Shown: piece after piece, positions 8,700 through 63,854 of the stretch
Numbering within the stretch: position 1 is the stretch's first letter
How the letters are laid out: each line of letters starts with the position of its first letter
DNA from: Acanthochlamys bracteata
Taxonomy: Eukaryota > Streptophyta > Magnoliopsida > Pandanales > Velloziaceae
DNA: 64,000 nt
Direction of reading: 5' to 3'
NCBI GenBank assembly: GCA_019914995.1
Contig: CM034145.1
Location: 5,153,262-5,217,261 of the forward strand
The notes under the pieces: generated by a model
What the model saw: the letters and a program-made list of their open reading frames with translations, nothing else
What the model was told of the DNA's origin: nothing
Databases searched by the model: none
Translations under genes and position numbers: made by a program

Positions 8700-11600
8700 T
8701 GCTGCTTCGTTAACTTTCGGAAGTGCCTAAAATAAAGAACTTTTTAGAATAGAGTTTATTTTAAAATTTTAGCCAAACAGTATTCTCAACTTTTCAAATT
8801 ATCCGTCTTTAGACTAAACAAATAATCTATAATTTAATATAACCTATATCAATATTAATCCTCAACATTTCAAAGCATCAACAGATAAGCAGTATACAGT
8901 ATCGATAAAAAATATCACGTATATCAATATAAAAATACTACTTAATTAATAAAAATAATATAAACTATAAAAGGAGAGTTCCTGTTTTTCTATTTACATA
9001 TTTATATATTTTTTTCACGATGAAAACTTAGGCTTTTGGAGATCTTTTTTTTTCAATTTTTTATTTATATTTTTTAATAAAATATTTAAAATATTTTATA
9101 AAATATTAAAAAAATTTAATAATTTACTTTTTTAAAATATTTATTTTCAATATCCTTTTAATTTTTCTATTTTTTTTGTTTTGACTTGATTTGTGAAACG
9201 AATCCAATCATAACATGAGTAACATTGTTACACTATTTTATTAGTATTTAAGTATAAGTCCATTTTTAGTTTGTTAGATTTTGAATTGAAACAGGCATTG
9301 ATTAATCATGACTTAGAAACTTTCGATTGGCGAGTTCATCATATATCAAACCAAACAAGGCCCATAATTGTTGCCATTAACTATTCCCACACAATGATTT
9401 CTACCTACATAAAAGGGTGCATTTTTTTGCACACCAAAAATATTTCTGTTCTACTAAAAAATTATTTTTAATTTATTTTTAATAAAAAAAATATATCACT
9501 TTCATTAATAGTATTTTTATAATTTATTTTAAAAAAATTCACTTTCGAAATTAAAAAAACTCACACAAAATGCATCGTACAGTTTCGTTAAATTTATAAG
9601 AAATTTATAAGAAATTCAACAACTGACAATATTAGTTAATGCTTGCTTCATACTTAATCATCTCGGTTGTTTGAAAAAAAAACATCAAAGACGCAATAAT
9701 GTCTAACAAACAAACATCTTCCAAGAACATTTGTTAGGTAAAGAAATAATGGTTGCTATTCTTTGACTTATAATAATAACTCACCAACATTGATTAAAAC
9801 TTCTTCTCTGAGACATTGCTCGGACGTCGTGCAAAGTTTTCGATTTGAGTTCGAGTTCATATGGTTTAGGGTTTTTAATGAGCTGTTAGCTCGGATGTTT
9901 AGGAATATTTTAAAAAAACTTTTATGGAATAAAAAAGTTTTAAAATTTTCTAAAAAATAAAATTTATTTTTATTTAAATAATAATAACAAAATAAATAAT
10001 AATAAAGTCTCATGACATATGATAAGATTTATTTATAATTTCTGAAATTTATAAAATATAATAACATATTTATAAAAAATATATAATTAAAAATTAAAAT
10101 AAAAAGAGTTTATAATGAATGCTAAATAAAAACTAGATTGAATGAGATGTTAGAGCGCATTCTTAATTTGATTTATTAAAAATATTTATTATAATTTAAG
10201 TTATTATAAATAATTTCTTAGGAGTAGGTTTAATATTTATATTTTTGGTAATTGAAATTGAGCTGAAAATAATTTTATTTTTTTTGTAGTTAAAAGAAAA
10301 CTAAAACTAACTTATTAGTATAAAAAAGTAGTTATGAATGTGAAAAGAATACGCTTTTAATTGCACTAGCTAATTTAGTTAAGTTGGAGCTGAAAAGATG
10401 CATCTTTTTAAAAAATAACTGAAGTTTTTGTTTTTTATTATATATGTGTATAATGAGCATACATATAGTTTTTGTTATTAACAAAACTCTATAAATGACT
10501 ATTTTATGATAGATTTTTAACTAGAAAAATAAAGATTAAATTTTAATTCTTTTCAAATGTCTATATGTTTGATTTAAAATTTCCACTAATTCATTACTTA
10601 TAGATTATAAGTTAGTAACAAAATATGCAAAACTTATAGTTCATATTGTAAGACCTAAGTAAGTATATTTAATATATTAATGAATTTCTTATATATCTTG
10701 AATTGTTTAGAAAGATTATTGTCTTATATTATCATGTGATAAAATAATATCTTTTTTCGAATTTCTTCGTAGTTTGTTAAGAGTTAATTAATTTAACATG
10801 CATGTCCTCTAGTGAACGTTGGCATTGCGTATGATTCATTTTTTTATGGTTTCGTTTCAACGTCTCAGTTTTTAATAAATTTTTACACTATTTTTAAAAT
10901 AAATAAATTTTAATATATACAGATAAATTATATATTATAAAGTTTTTGTTTCTTTAATTAAAATAAAATCGTTTTACAAAAAACTTCATCATGAGTATTG
11001 GGCTTTAGCCCTTCACCATTGATGATGAGGCCCTACTAGATCCAATTAAAAACTAAGAAATTTGCTTGGATGGAAGCCTGCTTTTCCTTGTGTCCACGTT
11101 CTCACCAAATTTACGTGTTTTAAATTTTTTTTTAAATATAAAATATTTTTATTTTTTATATAAAAATAATAAGTAATAAAAAATTTACTATGTAGAATAT
11201 TTTATATTTTTAAATAAATTCTCTAAATATTTATAAAAAGTGTATTGAAAAAAATGAACTAAAAAATTTAAAAATTATTTTAAAAAAAAATTAGCTAGAT
11301 GCCAGTGTGTAAAATTTTAGAGTCATATTTGACTTTTTTTTTATTTCTTTTCATTCGAATTTTTATTTTATATATTTTTTAATAAATTATTTATTGTACT
11401 TTATATATTTTATTTTAAAATTTCAAAAAATATAAAAACATTCTAAGATCTTGATATTGATTATTTCTATATTTGAAGTAAGAAAAATATAAATTATTTT
11501 CTAAAAAAGAATAAAAATATTTTTATTTTAAAAAAATTAGTTTCAAAAGCTCCAGACGATAAATTAATTCAAGTTTTATGACATAAAATTTACTTTCGAC

Positions 11601-56551: not shown

Positions 56552-59500
56552 ATGGATTTCACCTGCCGTAATTCTCCATCGGTGAGAACAAATATCAAAA
56601 TTTTCTTTCCAATTTTTTTTCTAAATTCTTCTATACTTTCATAAATTGCTTTTACTACTCTGTCCAGTTTCGTGTTCTCAATCTTTCAGTATGCTGTAAT
56701 TTGATTGTTTTTTGGTATTTTAAGTTCATCGATGAATTTTTCATAGAAATGGAACTGCAAGCGTTAAAAATTTCTTTACTGGTCTGTTCAATTTCATGTT
56801 CCTAATTGTTCATCTTGCTGTAATTTGAATTTTTTTGGGTACTTCAGTATTTATCGATGAATATTTGTTGAAATTGAAACTGCAAACAAATTTGTAACAA
56901 AATTTGAAGCTCTTCTCTCACTGTTATTGAATTTGGATTTCAGGTTTGGGATGGCAATGGGTTCTCGGCATGCTTTAGTAATTTATATCCTTATGATATT
57001 TTGCTGTTTTGATTTTTGTATTGCTGCTAATTTCTGGATTTTAAATTTTTAGAGAAACATGTTAGTTCTTAACTAATGCTGTACAGTTTTTGGATTCTGT
57101 GGAAACATGTGCACCATTTTGGTAGTTCTTTATGTTGCGGTTGCCAGGAGAAACGATGAAAGGGCTTCCGTAAGTTTGAATTTTATTTTATTTTATTTTT
57201 TGCCAGTGCAGTGGATGCACGTATATCTTTATAGTAGCTATCTCTTAGAAGATTTTTGCAAGTTTATGCACTGCACCTAATAACAATTGACTTGAATGTC
57301 CTCGTCAAACATTTGATATTGATTTTAAAATATTAGACAAGCTGACAAGTTCATAAAGTAGCAAACGTTTTAAGCACACTATTTAATCTGGTTTGGGAGT
57401 CTACTTCTGAATATACCGTGCATGCAATCATTTGAACCAGCTTAGCAATCTGCTTGAAATGAATATAAGTACATTTTGTAACCATCTGATCTTATTCTTA
57501 AGAGTATTTACTGAAGTCTATGTGCTAGGATGATATTAACATTCAACCTTATAAGTCGATCACTCTTTTTTGTTTTTTGTTTAATCACAAGACATCTTCC
57601 CCTTGATTCTTGTTCTAGATAGGTTAATGTGATTATCAGATTGTCTAAGTGAATGGTCTTTAGGATGTGGGAGTCTTAATTGATCAGTTTTAAGAAGGTT
57701 AAACTTGGATGGCTTGTGAAGTTTGGATTTTAAAAGTAATGCCCTTCTAAACAATGTTATACTTGATTCTTTCTTATGATTACAATATATTTATTTTAAA
57801 GATAATTGCAACTGAAGCTACATTTCAGTCAAGGTGCGTTCTAAGGACTTACCAGTCTGTTGTTTTACCTAGAATATGAGGGTTTGCTGTCTGGAGAAGA
57901 CGTTTTGGCACTTGATACCTGCTTGTGGAGCATGTCTTACCTTCTTCGAGTTAGTATTACTTTTAAGGAATGGCTTGCAAGGGCAAAGCTCTGAGAACCA
58001 TGAGTTGTTTTCTGCTTTTTCGCAGTTTGCTTCTTGGGTGAGCTTCATATTTAAATCTAAAGCTATCTGCCTTGCAAAAATTTTATTCATATCACCTACT
58101 TCTTTGTTTCTTGTAGATGGTCATTTTGCTTGCGTTGAACGTTAGAAATGGTTTTCGTTTGCTTTGTCATCCGATCCTATGCATTTGGTGGGTTGTAAAA
58201 CCTATGTTGGAGATTCCTCATTTGTGGGTCTCGTTTTCAACATATGAGGTAAATTCACTAATTTGGTTATAGTATGACATGGTAGCTGGTTCACAACTTT
58301 AGATTTACTACTATTTTAGTTTACAAAGTTGTAGCACCAAGTATGATCTGCAGCAATATTGCTCTTCTTGAATAGATGGATTTTACATATTTCAGGACGG
58401 CAAGCACTTTGCTAGTCTTGAATCATCATGGGATCTAGTAGCTTTATAAATACCTGAATTGGACGAAGTTTTGCAACAAAGAACAACAATTGTTGTTCAT
58501 TCCCTTCATAATCATCTAAGACTTTTGTAACAGATCTTTAAAATCTAACATAAAATTATTGAAAAATCATTATCACTAAAAGTTAGGTTGGAACTTCCCT
58601 TTAATAAGTTTCATTCGTGCTAGTTCTTTCATTGTCGTTTTTGTTTGGCACTTGGTTGTTTGCTTGGTATCCTAACTCAGCTGGTGCCCAGTTTTACTAA
58701 GCTATTTGTATTTTTGTAAGATTTCAGTTCTTTTAGTATATATGCTATGTATAAATACTCAGTTGGGGAAGTTTTGCAGATTTCAAGGTTGGTATGCCAG
58801 GGCATGTGTATCTTTGTTGAGATCCTATTCTGTCTGTTTGTCAATATTGTTCGAGTTGTGCATGCACCAAATAAAGAAAGGTGTGTCTCCTGTAATAATT
58901 TCTAATCTACAGTTAACATACATCTTTCTACCCACAGAAAAAGTACCATCTACCGAAATGCCTGTTTACTTTCAAGAAAGAAAAAAAGAAAAAAAAAGAA
59001 TTTAAAAAAGAAAGAAAGAAGACCTTCATTGGATGGCAAATTAGATTTAAGAAGAACCAAGGGCATTACCTTAGTAAGGCTTCCAAGATTCATATCCATC
59101 ATATTGAACCACCTAACTGACCATACCTATAACTTATGAAAACGACTGACTGTACATTCATCTTTATACTGTTTTTCATCTGCAAACACCAGGTTTATGT
59201 TAGTAAATCTCTCATTCAACTTGAGAATCATTGCATATTGGTACATTCCTCTTCCAAAGAACATTCTAGATGCTTTCCAACTGTCATAAAACAGGACACA
59301 ATCTATTAACCATCATTAGCGTAGTTCTTGAAATGTAGAGAATGAAATTATTTATCTTGATATATGGAAGATAAAAGAGTGTGCTTTCTTTTAATTTTAA
59401 CTTAATTGTCCATATGTTTTGAGCATGCTGTTTGAAAGATGAAGTGAAGCGTTTCTCTAATACTGTTTCGTGTCTACTGTCATTGTATAGGATAGTAGTC

Positions 59501-62500
59501 TGTTCACTTGAGGATCCGCTACTTGAACCCAGTAAAGAGGAGAAGGGCTGTGCAGGGAAATTGGTACGACAGGGTTATTTTCCATTCAGTTTCCAGCAGG
59601 ATTAGCATAAGGGACCTACTTTCTCATGATTTATATTTTAAGCCATCCTAGTCTGGGATCCTATATCCATAAGACTTCACTTGGTGATGCTATGCATGTG
59701 ACTTTGTTCCCATTGGTTATGCAGATTGGTTGGATTGGTTGCTTGTGGGACCTTCTAACATTCAGATTTGTCAATCAAATGATGGATACTGGTCAAAGAA
59801 AGCAACTCAATTTTGAAGATTTAGTTAAATTACCTTATGAGCTCCAGTCCACTTCTTGTCATAGTACACTAGCAAGTTGTTGGGTTGCAGAAAGAGATGA
59901 GCACGGAGCGTCTCCCTCTCTGTTCAAGGCAATTTCCTATGCATATGGATGGGCTTATTTGCGTTTGGGTCTACTGAAGGTCGTTAACTTTCTAACACTT
60001 TATTCTTTTGGCATCAAGAAAGATGCTAATCTTTTTCTTTCTATTGTTTTAACACATCTATGACATATATTGCCACTTTAGGATGCTTCAAAACTTAAAT
60101 TAGGTTACAACAACTCCTGATATTGTGTTTTCTTAACTTCTGCCCCTTTGCTGTTGTACATTTTGTTTGTTAACTATTGTTTTCGCTGAAACATTACATT
60201 TACTACTCTCACAAACTTTTGTATTATTGATAGATATATCAGCTTAGTTTACACCATCTGTTTCACCTGCACAGGTCTTAAATGATTCTGTAGGTTTCTT
60301 TGGACCCTTGCTCCTTAACAGGCTAATTCTTTACCTGCAAGAGGGTAAACTTTGTCGTACTATATTTATAACATTTATGTTTGTTCACCATTCTTAGCCT
60401 AAGCATAAAAGTTTTGAATTCTTACAGTTCTTAAAAATACATTGCTTTCAGGTTCTACTGACATTGATGGCTATATTCTTGCTATTTCTATGGGCCTTGC
60501 ATCCGCCATCAAGTACTTTCTCTTTCTGGTTCCTGCAGTCTAGGTTATGTTGTTAACAATTTAAAGTCTATTATGTTTTGAAATAGGCTGCTTGAAAGTT
60601 TCTTACTTTGGAAATTTGTTGGTTTCTAACTAAGGTAAAGATATATCAATCAAATTTGTTAGTTAAAGTCTATTATGTTTTGAAATAGGCTGCTTGAAAG
60701 TTTCTTACTTTGGAAATTTGTTGGTTTCTAACTAAGGTAAAGATATATCAATCAAATTTGTTAGTTAAAGTTTAAGAATCAAGGTTTCATGATTTCATGG
60801 TATTGCAACATAACAAGTCCATTAATAGGTGCTTTTCTTTATTAAGTCGGAAATTGAAAGAGACACTGTTCTTCAGTAGCATAGACAAAAAAGATTTCCT
60901 AGTCTATCATCTATCTGGAGGGAAAAGATTATGTTTCCGGAAAGATGATAATTTTCAATACTTGGCAAAAAATCTGATGGTAACCTAAAGAGGGGGAATG
61001 AAAAGAGGCACAACTTTGGAATATGCAAGATCAGCAGATCTCATGCCAGTAGCAATGAATATAGATATTTGCACTAATATTTAGATCTTACTTCATAAAG
61101 TTATTCTCTATCCTTGAAAATTGAGATTTTATTTCAAGAGAATGTAAACAACTCCTTTGCTATTATACATTGGAGTCGGAACTATGAATTGCATGCGATG
61201 AACAAGTGTGTGTGTTCGCTTCTTGTTTTATGACTTTTATGTGATGAACAAATGTTTGTATAAATGCCGGCTTTTGTTTTATGTTTGCTATTATGAAATT
61301 GTCATTGAGGTATAGAAAATTATGTACAGTGGAACAAGGTATTTTTCAAGCAATGAGGTTTAGTGAAGATGCTGATATACAGTTTAGTTCTACTCTTTCT
61401 GTTCAATCTATCTAAGGCTTAGATTTTCCTTTTGGAAGTAAGGGGAAAGAATACCATGTATTCTTATAAAGCATTTCTAACCTTTCATTTAAAGTGAACT
61501 TAGATGAGCTGTGGTTTTGAGGTCTCCCGGGTTACAAAAATAATTCACCATTCTGTAACAGCAGCTCTTTTTTATTCTAGGTCTTTTCTGGATACACAGT
61601 ACAGTTTCCATCTAATGAAATTAAAGCTAAAGCTAAGGTCTGCAATCATGACAATGATTTACTGGAAGGTAAATTCTCTAACATCATATGTTCTTCTCTT
61701 GTTTAGTGGCTTCTTACTTGTTAGTTAGCATCTCCAATTATATATTTCCTTGTAATAAAGTTTGAAAGTTTTGTTAATTGAACTTTTTGATAGAGTACGT
61801 GTCGGTTGATTTATGTTATTTCGTATCCATTTGAACTGTGAACACTTGCTTGTTGTAATCATTCAAAGTGTCCAACTTTGATTGCAATTACTGACACAGT
61901 TGCTGTCTCCTTTTGACCATGTGACTAATTCCAACTATTACTATAAAGACTTGCTAAGCCTTTTTTGCATCACCATTCATGATGTCTCTTTGTATGCAAA
62001 TTACAGTGTGTTTGCACAAGCCTTGCTGGACGTTCAAATTTTTCAGAAGGAGAAGTTCAGACTTTCATGTCAGTAGATGCAGATCGAACTGTTAATTTGT
62101 GTAATAGTTTCCATGATATGTGGAGGTATTCATATATTGTTCCACAGTTGCTTGCTTTTGATGCATGAATCACCGACCTGCACATTTATTAACTTACTTC
62201 ATTGTTGTAGATTACAATTTTTTTTCTTCTGTTTTGTATAATGTTTTGTGTAAGATTTGAGTAAATAAGTTTCTTATGTTTCTAATTATTCTAGAAACCT
62301 GTTGGCTTTGAAAGCTTGCCTTTGCAGATTGGTGTTGCACTTTATCTCTTATATACACAAGTCCAATTCGCATTTGTTTCTGGTGTTGCAATAACCATCT
62401 TGCTTATACCAGGTATACTATCCAACTTTTTGGTAGCTTAGATGCGTTTGGTGATGCAATGAAGTCACGAAGAGAACATTATTCTATTTGCATACATGAC

Positions 62501-63854
62501 ATTAGTTCATGAACGAGTTTAAGATAGTACATACCGACTCATTTTAAAGAATTTGTACTTTGGACACTACTTAAAGCACTTCCAGTGAGAGTATGTTCAT
62601 GTATTCTGTGTGTGTTTGTTTAATAATAATCTGAATGCGAAAACAAGATATGCATTCCTATAATTAGTTTAACTTGTTGTTCTATTTGCAGTGAATAAGT
62701 GGATCTCTACATTGATTGCTACTGCTATGGGCAATATGATGAAACAAAAGGACGAGAGGTAGTCATTGTTGTCTTTACGCTGGATCTAGACGTTGTGTCA
62801 AGATTAATGCAACTTCCTGTTCTATCTAAAAGAACATTAATATCCATGATAAAAATATTATTTATGCCAAGTGCTGTGTATTCTGGCTGAAGTTTAGAAT
62901 ATCTAGCGCATCTAGTGCTGTGTATTTGTGCATCATAGGTATTTTAAACAAGTATATGCATGTCGAATAGCATCACATAATTTGACTTCTCAATAGCAAG
63001 CTTTAACATTTCATAAAAGATTGTTGTAAATATACTTTTGTCTACAGGGTCAGAAGGACAGGTGAACTTCTATCACACATACGTACTCTAAAGTTGTATA
63101 GCTGGGAGGATATATTTACTAGTCGTCTGATGGAAATTAGAGACAAAGAAGTAAAATACTTGTCGGTAAGCTCTAGCGGTATCCTTGAATATGATTTCTA
63201 CTTCTCTTAATTATTTAGCTGTCTGGACCTTACTTTCATTTTATCAACCATTTTCAGAGCCGAAAATATTTGGATGCATGGTGTGTTTTCTTCTGGGCAA
63301 CAACACCTATACTCTTTTCTCTTTTTACCTTTGGCGTGTTTACATTGATGGGTCATTCTTTAGATGCAGCTACGGTAATGGACTAAGTGATTTGGTTTGT
63401 ATGTTTGAATGTTTCATGATATTTTCTTTATTTCACATTTTGGTTTATAGGTTTTCACTTGTCTTGCGCTGTTTAATACGCTGATCTCTCCGCTAAATTC
63501 CTTTCCATGGGTGATTAATGGATTGATCGATGTAAGTTCTGTATATCTTGGATACTTCGCCCTTTTGTGCCAAACTTTTGAAGGGTACTCTTTTGAACCA
63601 TATTGCAGGCTGTCATTTCTACAAGGCGGTTGAGCAAATTTCTGTCCTGTCCTGAGCGGAGTTGTAATTCTGGAGAGTATTCTGCTTTATGCTCTACTTG
63701 TTTGGTGTCTGATGGTGATACTGATTCACTGGCAGTTGTCTGTCAAGATGCATCCAGTACTTGGTCTAGCAGCTATGAAGGAGGACAAAGCACTGTCTTA
63801 AGTGGCATTTCAGTGAACATCCCCAAAGCCATTCTTGTTGCCATAGTGGGCGAG
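56552..63854 (+). CDS. ABCC13: ABC transporter C family member 13-like (MRP type), 3' part beyond window
   Basis: Eighteen in-phase exons (649 codons): 56,552-56,581; 56,944-56,984; 57,085-57,169; 57,873-58,037; 58,117-58,248; 58,780-58,880; 59,491-59,563; 59,725-59,979; 60,275-60,344; 60,452-60,512; 61,581-61,668; 62,007-62,125; 62,315-62,412; 62,692-62,758; 63,048-63,165; 63,258-63,374; 63,451-63,531; 63,609-63,854. ABCC proteins export conjugated organic anions, usually into the vacuole; the substrate of ABCC13 is not known to me. Visible parts: hydrophobic N-terminal region, the linker LLEPSKEEKGC and NFEDLVKLP, then TMD1 with GFFGPLLLNRL, FSEGEVQTFMSVDADR, GELLSHIRTLKLYSWE and RKYLDAWCVFFWATTP. 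The last exon ends IPKAILVAIVGE, so Walker A of NBD1 should be in the next exon. Intron 2 is a U12-type AT-AC intron. Sequence resembles Arabidopsis At2g07680 as I recall it. Rice OsABCC13 is a different protein despite the number. Confidence 0.92.
56985..57084 (+). other. U12-type AT-AC intron (ABCC13 intron 2)
   Basis: The 5' end reads ATATCCTT, the exact U12 AT-donor consensus. The branch-site-like TTCTTAACT (57,066-57,074) is followed 12 bases later by a terminal AC. Splicing joins AAT-TT to A-GTT and continues the frame into VFGFCGNM. No GT-AG alternative in this interval preserves the frame. Confidence 0.85.
60561..60764. repeat. Perfect 102-bp tandem duplication in ABCC13 intron 10
   Basis: The unit starting TTAAAGTCTATTATGTTTTG occurs at 60,561 and again at 60,663, apparently without mismatch, followed by a short third start (TTAAAGT) at 60,765. 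It lies wholly in the intron between 60,513 and 61,580. Confidence 0.9.

Follow-up and report, generated by a model that had tools for sequence, protein, structure and literature searches.

The closest described systems are the U12-type AT-AC introns, for which PMC2831892 quotes a donor consensus of ATATCCTT and a branch-site consensus of TCCTTAAC, and describes a G at donor position +5 as the mark of U2-type AT-AC introns. The optimal distance from the branch site to the end of a U12-type intron is given as 11-13 bases in PMC3584512, where it is also noted that a pyrimidine tract is typically absent. Minor introns are described as biased away from phase 0 (PMC10639083). In the four plants of Table 2 of PMC7367187, AT-AC introns make up 13-26% of the U12-type introns; the first-pass annotation described them as a minor fraction of the U12 introns, which is fair, if mild. 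In Arabidopsis, the splicing of AT-AC introns reportedly needs DROL1, the plant's orthologue of TXNL4B (PMC11039992). Nested pairs of U2 and U12 introns have a precedent in prospero, described in PMC6865273.

Here, a 64,000-nucleotide stretch of the Acanthochlamys bracteata genome (the window) was analysed together with sequence beyond its end. The region contains a gene for a full-length plant ABCC (MRP-type) transporter, and intron 2 of this gene is, with high confidence on the sequence evidence, a U12-type AT-AC intron.

Gene model and predicted protein

Exon ends were chosen by reading the sequence, without a gene finder. The model has 36 exons, which encode an intact protein of 1465 residues (649 + 816) ending in a stop codon (Table 1). 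The 18 exons in the window keep the frame open for 649 codons across 16 GT-AG introns and one AT-AC intron, in agreement with the 18-exon frame first proposed, and over the whole gene 34 of the 35 introns are GT-AG, with intron 2 alone being AT-AC. Introns 1 and 3, which flank the unit of exons 2 and 3 together with the AT-AC intron, are GT-AG and in register.

Table 1. Features of the transporter gene around intron 2. Positions are those of the window, except in the last row, which uses the numbering of the downstream locus L010.
Feature	Position	Strand	Remarks
Exon 1	56552..56581	+	start codon at 56552
Intron 1, GT-AG	56582-56943	+	between exons 1 and 2
Exon 2	56944..56984	+	3' end ...TGC TTT AGT AAT TT
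Rival GT-AG intron (candidate)	56978..57086	+	encloses the AT-AC intron, 7 bases upstream and 2 downstream; in frame
U12-type AT-AC intron (predicted)	56985..57084	+	100 bases, phase 2
U12 donor ATATCCTT	56985..56992	+	exact, 8/8 consensus positions
In-frame TGA	57010..57012	+	reached if the AT-AC intron is retained
U12 branch motif TTCTTAACT	57066..57074	+	adenosines 57071/57072
Exon 3	57085..57169	+	5' end AGTTTTTGGA; after the join read (TT)A GTT TTT GGA
Exons 4-18	57873..63854	+	within the window
Exons 19-36	L010:516-5460		past the window end

The domain content is that of an ABCC transporter, as had been claimed at the outset. The first 649 residues match the Pfam family ABC_membrane (PF00664) at 4.7e-23, and the remaining 816 match ABC_membrane again at 1.8e-39 and ABC_tran (PF00005) in two stretches, the better of them at 3.6e-38. 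Two pairs of ATP-binding motifs can be read in the translation (GSGKSS/LSGGQ and GRTGAGKSS/FSVGQ). Weaker matches of the 816-residue part to SMC_N, MMR_HSR1 and Dynamin_N are probably nucleotide-binding look-alikes. Against solved structures, the first 649 residues match MRP1 at 1.9e-59, followed among the matches listed by chains of ABC transporter C family members 13 and 2; further solved relatives among these matches are ATP-binding cassette sub-family C members 2 and 3, YCF1 and SUR.

The transporter is a candidate orthologue of Arabidopsis ABCC13/MRP11 (At2g07680). The solved protein that bears the name ABC transporter C family member 13 (PDB 9vrb-9vre) matches at 191 bits, among the matches listed as distant as other ABCC proteins, and is therefore probably not the orthologue. 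Within the genome, a search with exons 1-3 returned only the self-match at E values up to 10. Exons 8-11 have seven relatives elsewhere, with 24-30% identity among the best candidates, and no close second copy was found among these. No locus from other species was found in the genome_contigs and viral_contigs collections, as expected for a plant gene. In the literature search, whose scope left the 2003 Arabidopsis U12 catalogue outside, no paper was found linking At2g07680 with U12, and none joining U12-dependent introns, Arabidopsis and an ABC transporter; ABCC13 was absent among the matches listed for U12-type, minor or AT-AC introns.

Some other features of the region may be recorded. Intron 10 of the transporter contains a perfect tandem duplication at 60561-60771 (period 102, 2.1 copies, 100% match), which is probably a recent event because the copies are perfect. 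An exact GTATCCTT lies at 63179, inside intron 15 (63166-63257), 13 bases past the GT donor and off the exon boundary. The next gene downstream (L010:6820-10000) encodes a transmembrane-9/EMP70 protein, with a Pfam EMP70 match of 8.1e-77 at L010:9471-9998.

Signals of the AT-AC intron

The intron begins with ATATCCTTAT and ends with TGTAC. Apart from its donor, the transporter gene has no exact copy of ATATCCTT on its own strand, and position +5 of the donor is a C, so that the mark of U2-type AT-AC introns is absent. The branch motif, TTCTTAAC at 57066, has one mismatch to the quoted consensus, a T in place of a C, which corresponds to one G-U pair with U12. Its two adenosines precede the final base of the intron by 13 and 12 bases. 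The 3' end reads directly as TTCTTAACTAATGCTGTAC, without a pyrimidine tract, and phase 2 agrees with the bias of minor introns against phase 0. The donor, the branch site 12 bases from the end and the terminal AC had all been named in the first-pass annotation and are confirmed, as is the TGA that it placed soon after the donor. When 56984 is joined to 57085, the frame stays open and reads ...GFSACFSN-L-VFGFCGNMCTILVV....

Chance occurrence of the motifs

The signals were searched for as a narrow triple, ATATCCTT-N60..90-T[C/T]CTT[A/G]AC-N7..13-AC. The window has a single occurrence on its + strand and none on its - strand. None was found among 60 simulated one-strand windows; when the gap was widened to 30-600 bases, two occurrences were seen in these 60. 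The donor octamer by itself has 8 copies on the + strand and 2 on the - strand, where the simulation gives 1.87 per strand. The window is thus rich in ATATCCTT on the + strand, and the simulation slightly flatters the find. The + strand sites are at 9150, 35837, 36917, 39145, 46519, 49889, 50758 and 56985, and the cluster at 35.8-50.8 kb is perhaps a repeat.

Across the whole 195.5-Mb genome, the form of the triple with TYCTTAAC occurs 10 times (6 + 4), compared with 15 (9 + 6) for a reversed-pattern control, which corresponds to 0.003-0.005 expected copies per 64 kb. Enrichment of the triple was accordingly rejected as proof: with 10 matches against 15 in the control, a match to the motif is by itself no evidence at the scale of the 195-Mb genome. 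The copy described here is credible because it lies exactly on the exon junction that the gene requires.

Of the nine other genomic matches, only one (L026, G000:C3:1449690-1449788) lies in a frame that stays open over 40 codons to either side of the join. It is the sole match among the nine that was given a Pfam check, in which PF05346 spans the join, and it is a probable second U12 AT-AC intron, in the gene for a PF05346 membrane protein. As a positive control it was found after the fact. The family (DUF747) is presumably TAPT1-like; the literature search found nothing on an AT-AC intron with TAPT1.

Components of the minor spliceosome

The same genome contains genes for machinery that such an intron would use. 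Rfam models identify two copies of U12 snRNA (92.9 and 73.4 bits), one of U11 (77 bits), and U6atac, whose best copy is on contig C5 (97 bits). A model search returned no match for U4atac in the genome, which does not by itself show that it is absent. The two U12 genes, on C10 and C15, are near-identical over much of their length, and both have an upstream AGTCCCACAT element. There are also three weaker U6atac matches of 37-48 bits, which are probably pseudogenes or chance matches.

These RNAs can pair with the signals of the intron. U11 can pair with donor positions +3 to +8 through 5 Watson-Crick pairs and 1 G-U pair, and U6atac with all five bases of the donor TCCTT. For U12 the partner is the branch motif, where 7 Watson-Crick pairs and 1 G-U pair can form, leaving one A bulged. 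In addition, two exons on contig C18, joined by hand, encode a TXNL4B-like protein of 94 residues, which scores 106.7 bits to TXNL4B versus 48 bits to the U5-15K/DIM1 paralogue.

Alternative explanations of the exon 2/3 junction

It had initially been held that the frame works only with the AT-AC intron, and a different exon 2/3 structure that keeps the frame had been set against it. This is not borne out. All joins between donors at 56949-57059 and acceptors at 57000-57149 with GT-AG, GC-AG or AT-AC termini were scanned, and 15 are open and in frame, namely the AT-AC join and 14 others; the count is again 15 when exons 4-5 are added. Different structures that keep the frame therefore do exist, the enclosing GT-AG pair being the one to take seriously, and uniqueness of the frame was rejected as proof of the AT-AC intron. 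A profile of solved ABCC N-termini gave no signal either. The AT-AC product scored -1.4 bits and the product of the enclosing pair -2.8, while shuffles reached 9.5 (997 of 1000 were scored) and 12 of the 15 joins stood above the AT-AC product, and the profile was likewise rejected as a means of choosing the junction.

The enclosing pair, with borders TTTA|GTAATT...GTACAG|TTT, gives a product in which I replaces SNLV, three residues shorter. It was scored with matrices built from the gene's own 34 GT-AG introns, real donors being treated leave-one-out. If it were an ordinary U2-type intron, the protein would read ACF-I-FGF rather than ACF-SNLV-FGF, and the U12-like signals inside it would be coincidental or relics. 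The join is open and in frame, the acceptor is average for the gene (14 of the 34 real ones score lower), and CTAAT near the end could, from its sequence, act as a U2 branch site. However, the donor is weak, with just 1 of 34 real donors lower, and the pair as a whole outscores only 2 of the 34 real introns. Such an intron would also leave unexplained the U12 donor with its full match, the branch motif at its proper distance and the AC, all of which lie just within its borders. The U12 product, moreover, retains CFSNLV, which by eye is like the CFQNTV of MRP1, CFIDGV of YCF1 and CFEQTV of MRP2 among solved ABCC N-termini, although this is a lead and not a test. We consider an ordinary U2-type intron here very improbable. 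Equally little weight is given to the possibility that exons 1-3 are mis-modelled, with the true start elsewhere and the AT-AC junction outside the real coding sequence. The N-terminal 209 residues have no Pfam match at E values up to 1 and no match to a solved structure at E values up to 10, which would fit a misplaced start. Against this, the flanking introns 1 and 3 are in register, the joined frame is open from the ATG through all 36 exons, and a WD..CF.N.V pattern followed by a hydrophobic stretch resembles, by eye, the start of MRP1.

A third possibility overlaps with a U12-type AT-AC intron and is not exclusive of it, namely that both introns are used, with the main protein coming from minor splicing and the form three residues shorter from the GT-AG pair around it, which would stand in if minor splicing failed or serve regulation. 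Both joins are in frame, and prospero provides the precedent for nesting, but the GT donor is weak and the 13 further open joins show how easily in-frame alternatives arise by chance. Use of both introns is unlikely, and that the two pairs constitute a working nested U2/U12 switch is quite unlikely. If there were such a switch, then wherever minor splicing became limiting the major spliceosome would remove the slightly larger intron, and the outcome would be a product without three residues at the start of the first membrane segment, instead of truncation.

Proposed splicing and its consequences

The reading of intron 2 as a U12-type AT-AC intron is preferred because of its signals, its setting in an otherwise GT-AG gene of 36 exons, and the presence of minor-spliceosome RNAs in the genome. 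In the mechanism envisaged, U11 would recognise the donor ATATCCTT, while U12 would pair with TTCTTAACT and leave an adenosine, 12-13 bases from the intron end, for branching. U6atac would then displace U11 at the donor and the AC would serve as acceptor. The phase 2 junction of exons 2 and 3 would encode ...CFSN-L-VFGFCGN.... That splicing takes this course in the cell is what we infer from the sequence signals, the frame, the snRNA genes and the possible pairings.

Retention of the intron would lead to the stop at 57010, and the full-length transporter should therefore depend on minor splicing at this position, except insofar as the weaker GT-AG pair around the intron is used. The predicted consequence is that the full-length transporter should fall in mutants of the minor spliceosome, above all in those of the drol1 type that are specific for AT-AC introns. 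There is also a practical consequence for annotation: pipelines restricted to GT-AG and GC-AG introns would cut the start of the transporter short or join its exons wrongly, and orthologues in other plants may carry the same error.

Comparison with known systems

The protein shares with the plant ABCC (MRP-type) full-size transporters the arrangement of two membrane and two ATP-binding halves, here in 1465 residues, and its N-terminal extension resembles, by eye, the TMD0 kind. With the prospero twintron, as described in PMC6865273, the locus shares the nesting of in-frame GT-AG and AT-AC pairs. The order is different, however, in that the major intron of prospero lies inside the minor one, whereas here the minor intron would be the inner one and the possible major intron the outer, at the level of sequence only.

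The closest resemblance is to the U12-type AT-AC introns collected in U12DB and the intronIC database, as these are described in PMC2831892 and PMC7367187. Shared features are the ATATCCTT donor, a branch motif of the TTCTTAAC type 12-13 bases from the AC, the lack of a pyrimidine tract, phase 2, and the occurrence of a single minor intron amid many major ones. Measured against the class as those sources present it, the intron has no distinctive difference, and it is a convincing yet ordinary example of the known AT-AC class.
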